Positions 24,288-28,513 of a DNA stretch of 64,000 nucleotides are shown piece after piece. The position numbers were made by a program, and so were the translations under genes. Origin of the DNA: Flavobacterium psychrotrophum (GTDB lineage Bacteria; Bacteroidota; Bacteroidia; Flavobacteriales; Flavobacteriaceae); assembly GCF_003403075.1 (NCBI RefSeq), contig NZ_CP031557.1:4588001-4652000 (forward strand), read 5' to 3'. Positions within the stretch are counted from its first letter, which is position 1. Each line of letters begins with the position of its first letter. Under the pieces are notes generated by a model. The model was not told the origin of the DNA. It ran no database searches and was given only the letters and a program-made list of their open reading frames with translations.

Positions 24288-24396
24288 AGGTTTTTTGGAA
24301 TTTAGCGGTAAAAATAAATAAACTAATCGGGAAGTCATAGTTTATAACGCCCAAAGTTTCTACATTCGTACAATAACCGTAAATTTGCTTCTTTTA

Positions 24397-24431
24397 GCCG
24401 CTGAGCCATTGAGCTGCTGAGCTGCTGAGCC
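24397..24431. repeat. Short imperfect tandem repeat upstream of ftsX and leuS
   Basis: Repeated copies of a GCTGAGC/GAGCTGCT unit lie in the spacer between the divergent ftsX and leuS genes. The spacer then continues with ACTTTA-rich sequence that is an inverted counterpart of sequence after ftsX (23291-23327). No gene is seen in the spacer. Confidence 0.5.
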
Positions 24432-24481
24432 TTCCATACGGGGGCTTTACGACTTTATGACTTTCAACTTTAAGACTAAGT

Positions 24482-27400
24482 ATGCGCTACAACCACAACG
24501 AAATTGAAGCCCGCTGGCAAAAATTCTGGGCAGAAGACGGCACTTTCCGTGCTGAAGATAACTCTGATAAACCAAAATATTATGTGCTCGATATGTTTCC
24601 GTACCCAAGTGGGGCAGGGCTGCATGTGGGCCATCCGCTGGGCTATATAGCCAGTGATATTTATGCGCGCTACAAACGCCACCAGGGCTTTAATGTGCTG
24701 CACCCGCAGGGGTATGACAGTTTTGGACTTCCGGCAGAGCAGTATGCCATACAAACCGGGCAGCATCCCGCCATTACTACCGAAACTAATATTAACCGCT
24801 ACCGCGAACAGCTGGATAAAATAGGCTTCTCTTTCGACTGGGACAGGGAGGTGCGTACCAGCAACCCCGAATATTATAAGTGGACACAGTGGATATTTAT
24901 CCAGTTGTTTAACTCATGGTACAATAAAGATACGGACAAGGCTGAAGACATTGCTACGCTTACTGCAAAGTTTACAGCAAATGGAAATGCAAATATTAAT
25001 GCCGTAAGCGATGATAACATTGCTGCCTTTACGGCTGATGACTGGAACGGTTACACCAAAGCCGAACAGGAGCGTATTTTACTACAGTACCGCCTTACCT
25101 ACCTTGCCGAAACTGAAGTGAACTGGTGTCCTGCGCTGGGCACAGTACTGGCAAACGACGAAATTATAAACGGCGTGAGCGAGCGCGGCGGCCACCCGGT
25201 TATCCGTAAAAAGATGACGCAGTGGAGTATGCGAATATCAGCTTATGCTGAGCGTTTACTACAGGGGCTTGATACCATCGACTGGACAGAATCGCTTAAG
25301 GAAAGCCAGAGGAACTGGATAGGAAAATCAGTTGGGGCAAGTGTGAAGTTTAGGGTTATTACCTCGGACCTCACCCCCAGCCCCTCTCCAAAGGAGAGGG
25401 GGGCTAGCTTCACTCAGGCTGGACAAACAGAATCTGGCCCCGGGTATATGACTGCTGATAGCACCAATGCTAAGGAACTTGTGCAATTTGCCAGGGCTAA
25501 CAGAAAAGGGGCTACTGAAGCAGAAGCACTTTTGTGGGAAGCGGTAAGAGATAAAAAGCTTGGATATAAAATAAGAAGACAACATTATATTGGCAACTAC
25601 ATTGCAGATTTTGTTTCTTTAGATAAAAGGCTGGTAATTGAACTGGATGGAGGTTATCATGATGCTCCTGAACAAAAAGGGCTTGATGAAGCAAGAACTT
25701 TAGATCTTGAGCAAAAACATTCTTTTAAAGTACTTCGTTTTACAAACGCGGAAGTACTTAATGATATCAATGAAGTACTTTCTAAACTACGTATAGCACT
25801 AGACAACCGCAAATCTTATAAAGAGGAGCAGCATTTGAGTGAAGCTGCTCCCCTCTCCTTTGGAGAGGGGCTGGGGGTGAGGTCTGAAGATGATAAGAAT
25901 CCGGGCATCTTAGAAGGCCTTGGCCTTAAAAACTTCATCAGCGACCTTACCGGAAACTTCGACGACCATACCTATGAAGAGCAATACATAGAAGTATTTA
26001 CCACACGCCCTGATACTATTTTTGGTGTTACGTTCATGACGTTGGCACCAGAGCACGAACTGGTTGCTAAAATCACTACGGCGGAGCAAAAAGCTGCGGT
26101 AACCGCATATGTAGAAGCTACTGCAAAGCGCAGCGAGCGCGAACGTATGGCTGATGTTAAAACCATATCGGGAGTATTTACAGGGGCATATGCAGAGCAT
26201 CCGTTTACTAAGGAGCCAATACAAGTATGGATAGGCGACTACGTACTTGCCGGTTACGGCACAGGCGCAGTTATGGCGGTACCTGCGGGCGACCAGCGTG
26301 ATTATGATTTTGCCAAACATTTTGGCATTGAGATAAAAAACATTTTTGACGGACAGGACATCAGCACTGAGGCTTATGGCGCTAAAGATGGCGTAAAACT
26401 TCAGGACTCAGACTTCCTGGATGGCGACGATTATAAAACGGCAACCAAAAAAGTTATCGAAGCGCTGGAAGGCATAGAGCAGGGCAGGGGCAAGACCAAT
26501 TACCGCCTGCGCGATGCCGTGTTCAGCCGCCAGAGGTACTGGGGCGAACCGTTCCCGGTATATTATGTAAACGGTATGCCGCAGATGATAGATAAGGCAC
26601 ATTTGCCAATTCGCCTGCCGGATGTAGAGAAATATTTACCTACCGAAGATGGTCAACCACCATTAGGTAACTCATCTGAATGGGCGTGGAGCATTGCCGA
26701 AAATAAGGTAGTAGCTAACGGCTTTATTGACCATGTTACGGTGTTCCCTCTAGAACTGAATACCATGCCGGGCTGGGCAGGAAGCTCTTGGTACTGGCTG
26801 CGTTATATGGATCCGCATAACGATGATGAGTTTGTATCAGATAAAGCAGAAGCCTACTGGCAGAACGTTGACTTATACATTGGCGGTAGCGAGCACGCTA
26901 CAGGCCACTTATTGTACAGCCGTTTCTGGAACAAGTTCCTTAAAGACCGTGGCTTTGTACAACAAGAAGAGCCGTTTAAAAAGCTGATCAACCAGGGGAT
27001 GATATTGGGTACGAGTGCTTTTGTCTATAGATTGTCGCCTACGTTTTGTGGTGCTATAAATGGTCAAAATTATGATTACGATTATGAATCTGGATTTGGA
27101 TGGGGTGATGATAATCTATTCTTTTCAAAAAGTCTCTTAACGAATACTTCAAATCAACATCCGGACTATATAAAAAATGACTTTTTGGTAAATTTCTTTG
27201 AGAAAGATTTAGCTGATAAATTGGCAACGCTGGATTTTACAGAGATAATATCTGAAGATATAGTTGAGTTATTAGAACTTAGGAATAAAACTATAAAAGA
27301 ACAAACCGAAATATTAAAATTGAACACATTATTCTGTGTAAATAAAATTCCGGCAGATGTGTCTTTTGTTAATTCTTCCGATGAATTGGATATAGAAGCT

Positions 27401-28165
27401 TTTAAGAATTGGAGGTCTTATTATAACAATGCAGAGTTTGTTACTGATGAAAACGGCAAATACATTGTAGGTCGCGAGGTCGAAAAAATGTCTAAGTCTA
27501 AATACAACGTAGTTACTCCGGATAATATTTGTGAGGATTACGGTGCTGATACCCTTCGTTTATACGAAATGTTCCTTGGACCCTTAGAACAGGCTAAACC
27601 GTGGAATACCGCCGGTATTACAGGTGTTTCGGGCTTCCTTAAAAAACTATGGAAACTGTATTTTGATGATAACGGACTTATTGTTACCGCTAACCCGGCA
27701 AGCCCTGAAGCGTATAAGATACTGCACCGCACAATCAAAAAAGTACAGGACGATATCGAGAATTTCTCGTTTAATACATCAGTAAGTTCGTTTATGATCG
27801 CCGTTAATGAGCTTACCGCCATCAATTGCCACGAGCGTTTAATACTGGAGCCGCTTGCCATTATCATTGCGCCTTATGCACCACACATTGCAGAGGAACT
27901 TTGGCACCGCCTTGGGCACCAGGGGAGTGTGAGTAAAGTGGCGTTCCCACTGTTCCAGCCGGAATATCTGGTGGAAAGCAGCAAAGAGTACCCGGTATCC
28001 TTTAACGGTAAAATGCGCTTTAAGATAGAGCTTTCACTTGACTTAACTAAAGAGCAAATTGAAGCCGCCGTAATGGCCGATGAGCGCACCATACAGCAAC
28101 TAAACGGGCAGCAGCCTAAGAATGTAATTATCGTGCCGGGCAAGATTATTAATCTTGTGGGTTAG
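24482..28165 (+). CDS. leuS: Leucine-tRNA ligase with in-frame DUF559 insertion
   Basis: LeuRS charges tRNA-Leu and proofreads mischarged tRNA. The class I signatures are intact: HVGH at residues 48-51 and KMSKS at 1002-1006. The CP1 editing domain is present (IEVFTTRPDTIFG onward) and a C-terminal anticodon-binding region ends in NVIIVPGKIINLVG. The protein is 1227 residues, well above the 900-970 I expect for Bacteroidota LeuRS. Residues about 296-468 are an inserted module: a DUF559/Vsr-like nuclease domain (Asp376, Glu387, Asp389, His393) bounded by inverted repeats that are also translated. A second segment, residues about 851-957, is AT-rich and unlike the LeuRS I know. No stop or frameshift breaks the frame. 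The gene is divergent from ftsX, the usual neighbour. Confidence 0.93.
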   Translation: MRYNHNEIEARWQKFWAEDGTFRAEDNSDKPKYYVLDMFPYPSGAGLHVGHPLGYIASDIYARYKRHQGFNVLHPQGYDSFGLPAEQYAIQTGQHPAITTETNINRYREQLDKIGFSFDWDREVRTSNPEYYKWTQWIFIQLFNSWYNKDTDKAEDIATLTAKFTANGNANINAVSDDNIAAFTADDWNGYTKAEQERILLQYRLTYLAETEVNWCPALGTVLANDEIINGVSERGGHPVIRKKMTQWSMRISAYAERLLQGLDTIDWTESLKESQRNWIGKSVGASVKFRVITSDLTPSPSPKERGASFTQAGQTESGPGYMTADSTNAKELVQFARANRKGATEAEALLWEAVRDKKLGYKIRRQHYIGNYIADFVSLDKRLVIELDGGYHDAPEQKGLDEARTLDLEQKHSFKVLRFTNAEVLNDINEVLSKLRIALDNRKSYKEEQHLSEAAPLSFGEGLGVRSEDDKNPGILEGLGLKNFISDLTGNFDDHTYEEQYIEVFTTRPDTIFGVTFMTLAPEHELVAKITTAEQKAAVTAYVEATAKRSERERMADVKTISGVFTGAYAEHPFTKEPIQVWIGDYVLAGYGTGAVMAVPAGDQRDYDFAKHFGIEIKNIFDGQDISTEAYGAKDGVKLQDSDFLDGDDYKTATKKVIEALEGIEQGRGKTNYRLRDAVFSRQRYWGEPFPVYYVNGMPQMIDKAHLPIRLPDVEKYLPTEDGQPPLGNSSEWAWSIAENKVVANGFIDHVTVFPLELNTMPGWAGSSWYWLRYMDPHNDDEFVSDKAEAYWQNVDLYIGGSEHATGHLLYSRFWNKFLKDRGFVQQEEPFKKLINQGMILGTSAFVYRLSPTFCGAINGQNYDYDYESGFGWGDDNLFFSKSLLTNTSNQHPDYIKNDFLVNFFEKDLADKLATLDFTEIISEDIVELLELRNKTIKEQTEILKLNTLFCVNKIPADVSFVNSSDELDIEAFKNWRSYYNNAEFVTDENGKYIVGREVEKMSKSKYNVVTPDNICEDYGADTLRLYEMFLGPLEQAKPWNTAGITGVSGFLKKLWKLYFDDNGLIVTANPASPEAYKILHRTIKKVQDDIENFSFNTSVSSFMIAVNELTAINCHERLILEPLAIIIAPYAPHIAEELWHRLGHQGSVSKVAFPLFQPEYLVESSKEYPVSFNGKMRFKIELSLDLTKEQIEAAVMADERTIQQLNGQQPKNVIIVPGKIINLVG
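25368..25416 (+). repeat. Left inverted repeat of the leuS insertion
   Basis: Begins ACCTCACCCCCAGCCCC, contains a 9-bp hairpin with an AAA loop, and ends CTTCACTCA. It matches the reverse complement of 25836-25883 with few differences. Confidence 0.85.
25836..25883 (-). repeat. Right inverted repeat of the leuS insertion
   Basis: The reverse complement reads ACCTCACCCCCAGCCCC at its start, then the same hairpin, then CTTCACTCA. It is in inverted orientation to 25368-25416. Confidence 0.85.
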
Positions 28166-28167
28166 TG

Positions 28168-28396
28168 CCTCACCCCCAGCCCCTATAACTCCTGTTTTGT
28201 TATTGACTTTTTGAGTCGTTGAATCTTCGATTTCCAAAGGAGAGGGGAGTGAGCTTCACTCAAGCATTCAGTCATTGCGAGGAGGAACGACGAAGCAATC
28301 TTTTGCCTTATTATTATAAGATTGCTTCATGCTTCGGAATCATTATAATACCGTTCTCTGCTCCCCTCTCCAAAGGAGAGGGGTCGGGGGTGAGGT
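28168..28396. repeat. Non-coding palindrome-bounded element after leuS
   Basis: The leuS-to-next-gene spacer (28166-28513) holds a second copy of the repeat pair. The left arm starts CCTCACCCCCAGCCCCT at 28168 but is broken at 28185-28233 by about 49 unrelated bases, then resumes with CCAAAGGAGAGGGG and GCTTCACTCA. The inverted right arm is at 28360-28396. Between them, GAAGCAATCTT (28292-28302) pairs with AAGATTGCTTC (28318-28328), part of another dispersed repeat. No believable gene lies inside. It resembles a MITE-like relative of the leuS insertion. Confidence 0.7.
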
Positions 28397-28398
28397 TG

Positions 28399-28436
28399 AA
28401 TCCGCACATTCCATAAAACGAATGTGCGGATTTTTC
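28399..28436 (+). terminator. Rho-independent terminator after leuS
   Basis: A perfect 12-bp stem (28399-28410 with 28421-28432) and a T-run follow the repeat element, so the leuS transcript probably includes that element. Confidence 0.85.
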
Positions 28437-28513
28437 ATTTTAAGAAATTTAACAGGAAAAAATGGCACGCTCTTTGGTTTGCCAAAAGTATCAATCTATA
28501 TAAACCATTCAAC

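Follow-up and report, generated by a model that had tools for sequence, protein, structure and literature searches.

A DUF559 nuclease module with palindromic ends, read in frame inside leuS of Flavobacterium psychrotrophum, as a candidate homing-type mobile element

The leuS gene of Flavobacterium psychrotrophum was found to carry, within one open reading frame, a DUF559 nuclease module bounded by inverted palindromic arms. The gene lies in a window of 64,000 nucleotides (contig NZ_CP031557.1, positions 4,588,001 to 4,652,000, forward strand), to which the coordinates below refer unless another genome position is named. With a probability of about 0.62, this insert may be regarded as a complete, non-splicing, protein-resident mobile nuclease element of the homing type, with REPIN-like miniature relatives. 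As judged from sequence, the module lies in frame in its host protein between paired ends, its sites occur in different states, its active site is under selection and it co-occurs with palindromes. Miniature end-pairs having the orientation of the element and, broadly, the matching sequence class are dispersed in the genomes of carriers. The mobility would be driven by the nuclease itself.

The nuclease module and its arms in leuS

The leuS frame (24482..28165, plus strand, 1227 amino acids (aa); TIGR00396 leuS_bact, 3e-267) is open throughout the insertion, as the first-pass annotation had described, and the core block at 25368-25883 indeed measures 516 bp, or 172 codons. The whole element (25364..25887, plus strand) consists of the left arm, the DUF559 nuclease and the right arm, all in frame. 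It is placed between the strands leading into the CP1 editing domain of LeuRS, which follows the insertion loop at 25979..26467 (plus strand; PF13603 at aa 500-662). A second leuS, which could have made this copy dispensable, was sought in the one-contig, 99.97% complete genome and was not found. In the model of a 486-aa part of LeuRS, the nuclease, the LeuRS strands and CP1 are confidently predicted and the arms are disordered, and at a predicted TM-score of 0.53 the relative placement of the domains is uninformative. LeuRS probably folds around the tethered nuclease and remains active.

The nuclease module itself comprises 131 aa (25448..25840, plus strand), with the Pfam DUF559 match at 25478-25792 (aa 333-437 of LeuRS, E=1e-27). 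Both the family profile and the fold place this DUF559/Vsr-like module in the PD-(D/E)XK group, and its model (mean predicted local distance difference test score, pLDDT, 85) gave structural matches to NGO0050, I-Bth0305I and Vsr; kinship to the EDxHD homing endonuclease I-Bth0305I was found in sequence as well as in fold. The acidic residues and the histidine of Vsr have a catalytic role. The residues Asp376, Glu387, Asp389 and His393, pointed out earlier as a conserved pattern, are present in the window copy (module numbering +322), and the corresponding D54, E65, D67 and H71 are conserved in all but two of the 133 in-gene copies (131, the window copy included). One exception (L097 in genome G044) has no recognisable arms, and there are no P1 repeats in its genome; the other is taken up below. 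The median ratios of nonsynonymous to synonymous substitution (dN/dS) were 0.14-0.28. Since selection on the open frame alone would not keep the active site, its retention across the copies indicates selection on the active site as such, and nuclease activity is predicted.

The inverted repeats reported at both ends of the block were recovered as arms of 41 nt (25364-25404 and 25847-25887, 95% complementary), which extend to about 60 nt when gaps are allowed, together with an inner inverted pair (25399-25416 and 25836-25853). Both arms are themselves palindromic, with the pattern CCCCTCTCC-N3-GGAGAGGGG at 25381-25401 and 25850-25870. The left arm (25364..25416, plus strand) is built of a C-rich tail, the hairpin CCCCTCTCC-AAA-GGAGAGGGG (25381-25401) and the inner sequence AGCTTCACTCA, and its unit is also dispersed through the window's own genome; the right arm (25836..25887, minus strand) is its inverted copy with the hairpin at 25850-25870. 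At no more than 3 mismatches, CCCCTCTCC-N3-GGAGAGGGG occurs 3 times in the window against 0 in 100 shuffles, and the palindrome has 26 copies genome-wide against 0 for the reversed pattern. Like these genome-wide copies, the third palindrome of the window (28363-28383) goes beyond the earlier description. It forms the right end of a nuclease-free repeat pair directly 3' of leuS (28167..28396, without assigned strand, delimited by eye); the left end of this pair is broken by unrelated DNA, and the pair has the inner TTCACTCA in common with the element. The region of this pair (28160-28400) also holds a further repeat-like stretch, GTCATTGCGAGGAGGAACGACGAAGCAATC.

Two other features were noted in this genome (G000). 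LeuRS has a second variable stretch before KMSKS (aa about 846-990, window about 27018-27460), which differs in the sister genome G118 and in which no element-type palindrome was seen by eye. The other DUF559 gene of G000 (C1:3614789-3615103) lies in a short frame interrupted by a TAA, and no element-type palindrome was found within the 3.3 kb fetched around it.

Hosts, site states and dispersed palindromes

The single locus first noted belongs to a phylum-wide family. In 150 genomes of the genus, DUF559 was found at E<=1e-10 in 55, with 83 matches, and the regions of the best 63 of these, in 60 frames, were fetched. Of these 60 frames, 8 are stand-alone, and in the other 52 the domain is inserted in frame, at repeated sites, into just four genes (metH 19, leuS 15, a UvrD/RecB-like helicase 10 and recG 8). 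Outside the fetched regions, short frames account for 19 of the 20 remaining matches, and the last one (G147:C14) lies in a frame of leuS length adjoining a leuS match. In genome G016, a single leuS (1386-aa frame) is occupied at two sites by DUF559 modules that differ in arm class. In-gene copies were sought within Bacteroidota, and DUF559 itself is also found outside this phylum, as seen from source names and control genomes. DUF559 was matched at E<=1e-12 in 167 of 392 Bacteroidota genomes, and the best 80 of 567 loci in a scan of named genomes all have Bacteroidota titles; for 77 of the 110 domains in these two sets together, the frame includes at least 100 aa besides the domain. Model scans identified as hosts ileS, metG, uvrC, icmF, aroC, cinA, cca, ade, mazG and an ABC-F ATPase, and further aminotransferases, alpha-xylosidase, wecB, gmk, leuC, type I restriction subunits and DNA methylases, giving about 20 host gene families, some with the module at the frame edge. 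The genes split by the module in the phylum are ileS, metG, uvrC, icmF, cinA, ade, mazG and wecB. In gmk, leuC and a sugar reductase (L220) it stands at one edge of the host match, and in cca and aroC the host match is seen only after the module; these cases may be fusions or incomplete.

The ends of the elements share one design, a C-rich tail and a GC-rich hairpin, in several sequence classes. Of the 132 in-gene copies, 101 have inverted arms that beat all 20 shuffles, as do 26 of the 39 stand-alone ones; among 39 control positions taken from the same host genes the number is 2. Arms of recG copies are mostly worn (median z 0.4). The first-pass annotation had held that a lack of arms at other DUF559 genes would argue for an old domain, and arms are present around most of the other in-gene copies. 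The tails beside the hairpins read CCTCACCCCCAGC or AGCCCCCC by eye, and no GTAG or equivalent tag was seen by eye next to the hairpins. At a constant site the arm class tracks the nuclease lineage, with 16 changes against 24.5 when shuffled within site (0 of 200) and, within leuS site 1, 7 against 12.3 (2 of 500); in this test 88 of 173 arms were classable, the tree was built on few columns, and near-copies inflate such tests.

The insertion points in leuS and metH correspond to a variable loop or linker. In the 59 loci that lack DUF559 the leuS loop is 15-46 aa long, as compared to 128-221 aa in the 15 filled ones; one locus of the first group (L165) retains a remnant of the right arm. The linker at metH site 1 measures 15-17 aa when empty and 148-168 aa when filled; at metH site 2, arm-free linkers have 17-34 aa and full elements 160 aa, and two loci, L057 (34 aa) and L074 (44 aa), have both arms without the nuclease, L074 retaining residues like those of the module's edge. 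The leuS insert requires at least nine changes on a leuS tree of 73 genomes. Domain identity correlates poorly with host identity (leuS 0.19, recG 0.04, uvrD 0.19, metH 0.45), and some close domain pairs, which had been ranked by domain identity, have a synonymous divergence (dS) below that of the host flanks, for example 0.45 against 1.57 in L067/L082. Both observations are suggestive of transfer into the same site. The earlier proposal of a mobile nuclease which entered at a tolerated spot before CP1, like an intein and without splicing, is supported by empty and filled sites and arms around most copies, by the patchy presence and by the absence of intein or intron matches.

Palindromes also occur apart from the nuclease. 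Among the P2 matches listed (150 places in 24 genomes), 39 neighbour pairs lie under 500 bp apart and all 39 point outward like the ends of the element; 33 have a spacing of 45-141 bp and 6 of 348-423 bp, five of the latter being metH nuclease elements. With thresholds of 1, 3 and 5 copies tried, and with counts that include the element's own arms, at least 3 P1 palindromes were found in 11 of 16 leuS carriers against 1 of 134 other genomes, at least 5 P2 in 13 of 19 metH carriers against 13 of 131, and at least 5 P4 in 6 of 10 uvrD carriers against 5 of 140. When the four classes were summed, 29 of 42 in-gene carriers had at least 10 copies, against 6 of 108 others, and phylogenetically independent pairs went the same way in 8.0 and the opposite way in 0.0 of 10. 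In a membrane-protein gene of the window's genome (C1:3786516-3788075), the HTTM and VKGC lumenal domains are separated by a palindrome-only in-frame insertion of about 60 aa; this solo palindrome has the inner sequence of the element, and the 60 or so aa are absent from 23 readable relatives. Two palindromes of the same genome (4764535 and 4430336) stand at 3' ends of genes and are read as the final residues SPQPSPKERE and SPRPSPKKRE. At G139:C1:95891-98047, the palindromes listed include 14 of the sequence CCCCTCCAAAGGAGGGG in an array, mostly 153 bp apart.

Possible mechanism and competing explanations

In the proposed mechanism, the nuclease would be made as a domain of LeuRS and would cut uninterrupted alleles and/or matching palindromes, after which repair would copy the element or the miniature pairs into the break. 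Residence in an essential gene would give steady expression and would protect the frame, because most disabling mutations would harm the host gene too.

Several points weigh against this interpretation. Cutting, homing and transposition are all inferred, and no target-site duplication was visible by eye at the metH junctions, where the host loops are too variable for certainty. The low-dS pairs had been ranked by domain identity, and the palindrome counts include the element's own arms. The matching of classes is not exclusive, leuS carriers being also enriched in P4 (at least 3 copies in 7 of 16 against 13 of 134, p 0.001) and uvrD carriers in P2 (at least 3 copies, p 0.013), and the independent-pair tests of single classes are not significant (median p 0.06 for leuS-P1, 0.125 for metH-P2 and 0.5 for uvrD-P4). 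Six genomes (G005, G046, G056, G073, G113 and G149) have at least 10 palindromes and no in-gene DUF559, and four of these lack any DUF559 match at E<=1e-10. The second active-site exception, a uvrD copy (L096 in G110), has a changed catalytic Asp, yet its genome has 12 P4 repeats. The recG copies persist despite mostly lost arms, the single groups formed by recG and by uvrD copies also fit long vertical inheritance with losses, and the arm pair of L057 could be a separate miniature insertion instead of a deletion. With 27 P2 palindromes and no DUF559 match at E<=1e-10, G056 is a candidate for nuclease loss or for another mover.

The palindromes may instead belong to an ordinary family of repetitive extragenic palindromic (REP) sequences, REPINs or miniature inverted-repeat transposable elements (MITEs), moved by another enzyme such as the Y1 transposase RAYT, with DUF559 as cargo between the ends. 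This is unlikely, though it accommodates the common nuclease-free pairs, the palindrome-rich genomes just described and weak RAYT associations (at least 10 copies, p 0.04; at least 3 P4, p 0.02; P5, p 0.05). At thresholds where the matching nuclease is associated, RAYT is not (P1>=3, p 0.34; P2>=5, p 1.0; P4>=5, p 0.10), and its independent pairs gave median p of 0.125 and 0.5. At least 10 copies are present in 29 of 101 RAYT genomes against 6 of 49 others (p 0.04; independent pairs 4.4 to 0.2 of 17), and when these counts are set beside those of the carriers, the nuclease predicts the palindromes better than RAYT. Moreover, G016 has 14 P1 copies and no Y1_Tnp match listed, the arm class follows the nuclease lineage, and the hairpins have no GTAG beside them by eye.

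An old, immobile fusion taken into service by the host, such as a repair nuclease joined to LeuRS or MetH, would explain the low dN/dS, the kept active site and the single groups of recG and uvrD copies. We consider it improbable in view of the patchy presence, the spread over about 20 host gene families (with the module at the frame edge in some), the inverted ends around most copies and the empty and nuclease-less states of the same site. Removal or skipping of the module at the RNA or protein level, by an unfamiliar intron, intein-like splicing or ribosomal bypass, is very improbable. The arms could pair in RNA, and entry into an essential gene would be easiest with removal; but a search of 24300-28500 against Rfam, with E up to 0.1 allowed, yielded no group I or II intron (its sole match being a sub-threshold microRNA), no intein or Hint family was present among the Pfam and NCBIfam matches, the junction residues being inspected by eye, and the insertion point is a variable loop around which the model keeps the LeuRS strands. 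Bypass by the ribosome, which had been suggested, does not fit with conserved nuclease codons in the host frame. A separate start at Met323, suggested likewise, is not general, as 44 of the 133 in-gene modules have no Met (the only start codon counted) within 45 residues upstream of the nuclease core.

If the element is as proposed, it would explain GC-rich palindromes and Pro/Gly-rich peptides in Bacteroidota proteins, would supply a candidate for the nuclease behind selfish palindromic DNA that lies in frame and would be an independent counterpart to the RAYT/REPIN arrangement. A nuclease domain is also present in some genes that are annotated as, among others, aminoacyl-tRNA synthetases, MetH and UvrC.

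Relation to known systems

The EDxHD/Vsr-like homing endonucleases, represented by I-Bth0305I, are related to the window module in sequence and fold, and the element works most like a homing endonuclease; that it would cut the uninterrupted allele and spread by repair is suggested indirectly by patchy sites and discordance of host and domain. In contrast to enzymes of the I-Bth0305I type, the window module has about 130 aa and no self-splicing intron or intein was found with it. Inteins with homing endonuclease domains are likewise in-frame nuclease inserts in essential proteins; in the window, however, no splicing domain was matched, and the insert, which lies between palindromic DNA ends, appears to be retained in the protein. 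In PMC3943268, a splicing device is treated as the licence for homing nucleases to enter conserved genes, so that introns or inteins are held to be needed there, whereas the present family appears to manage by in-frame tolerability. The DUF559 protein VsrA of Caulobacter, as presented in PMC12907096, is tied to DNA damage with a proposed role in mismatch repair; it belongs to the same Pfam family as the window module but is encoded by a free-standing gene.

The RAYT/TnpA-REP systems with their REP, BIME and REPIN repeats have a nuclease gene between inverted hairpin repeats along with dispersed inverted pairs, according to PMC8266576. The present element also has dispersed inverted pairs which co-occur with the enzyme (39 of 39 listed pairs outward), with exceptions. 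Its nuclease sits inside host proteins, which sets it apart from the RAYT/REP systems. Identity with these systems was rejected, as the enzyme between the ends has a PD-(D/E)XK/Vsr-type fold and not HUH (Y1), and no GTAG was seen by eye. Palindromic DNA in frame in protein genes is a trait that the element shares with Rickettsia palindromic elements and in-frame MITEs, which are not known to carry a nuclease and have no known mover.

No prior description of such an element was found in the open-access literature, and since every class examined fails on a defining feature, the element is placed outside these classes. Pending its mechanism, it could also be a variant of homing or REP-type elements. 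We give even odds to a distinct element class in which the nuclease is permanently a domain of essential proteins, homes to the same loop without a splicing device and controls genome-wide miniature palindrome pairs matching its ends. In the same reading, and with the same balance of chances, it would parallel RAYT/REPIN with a Vsr-type nuclease as its enzyme, with embedding in an essential frame as its persistence strategy.
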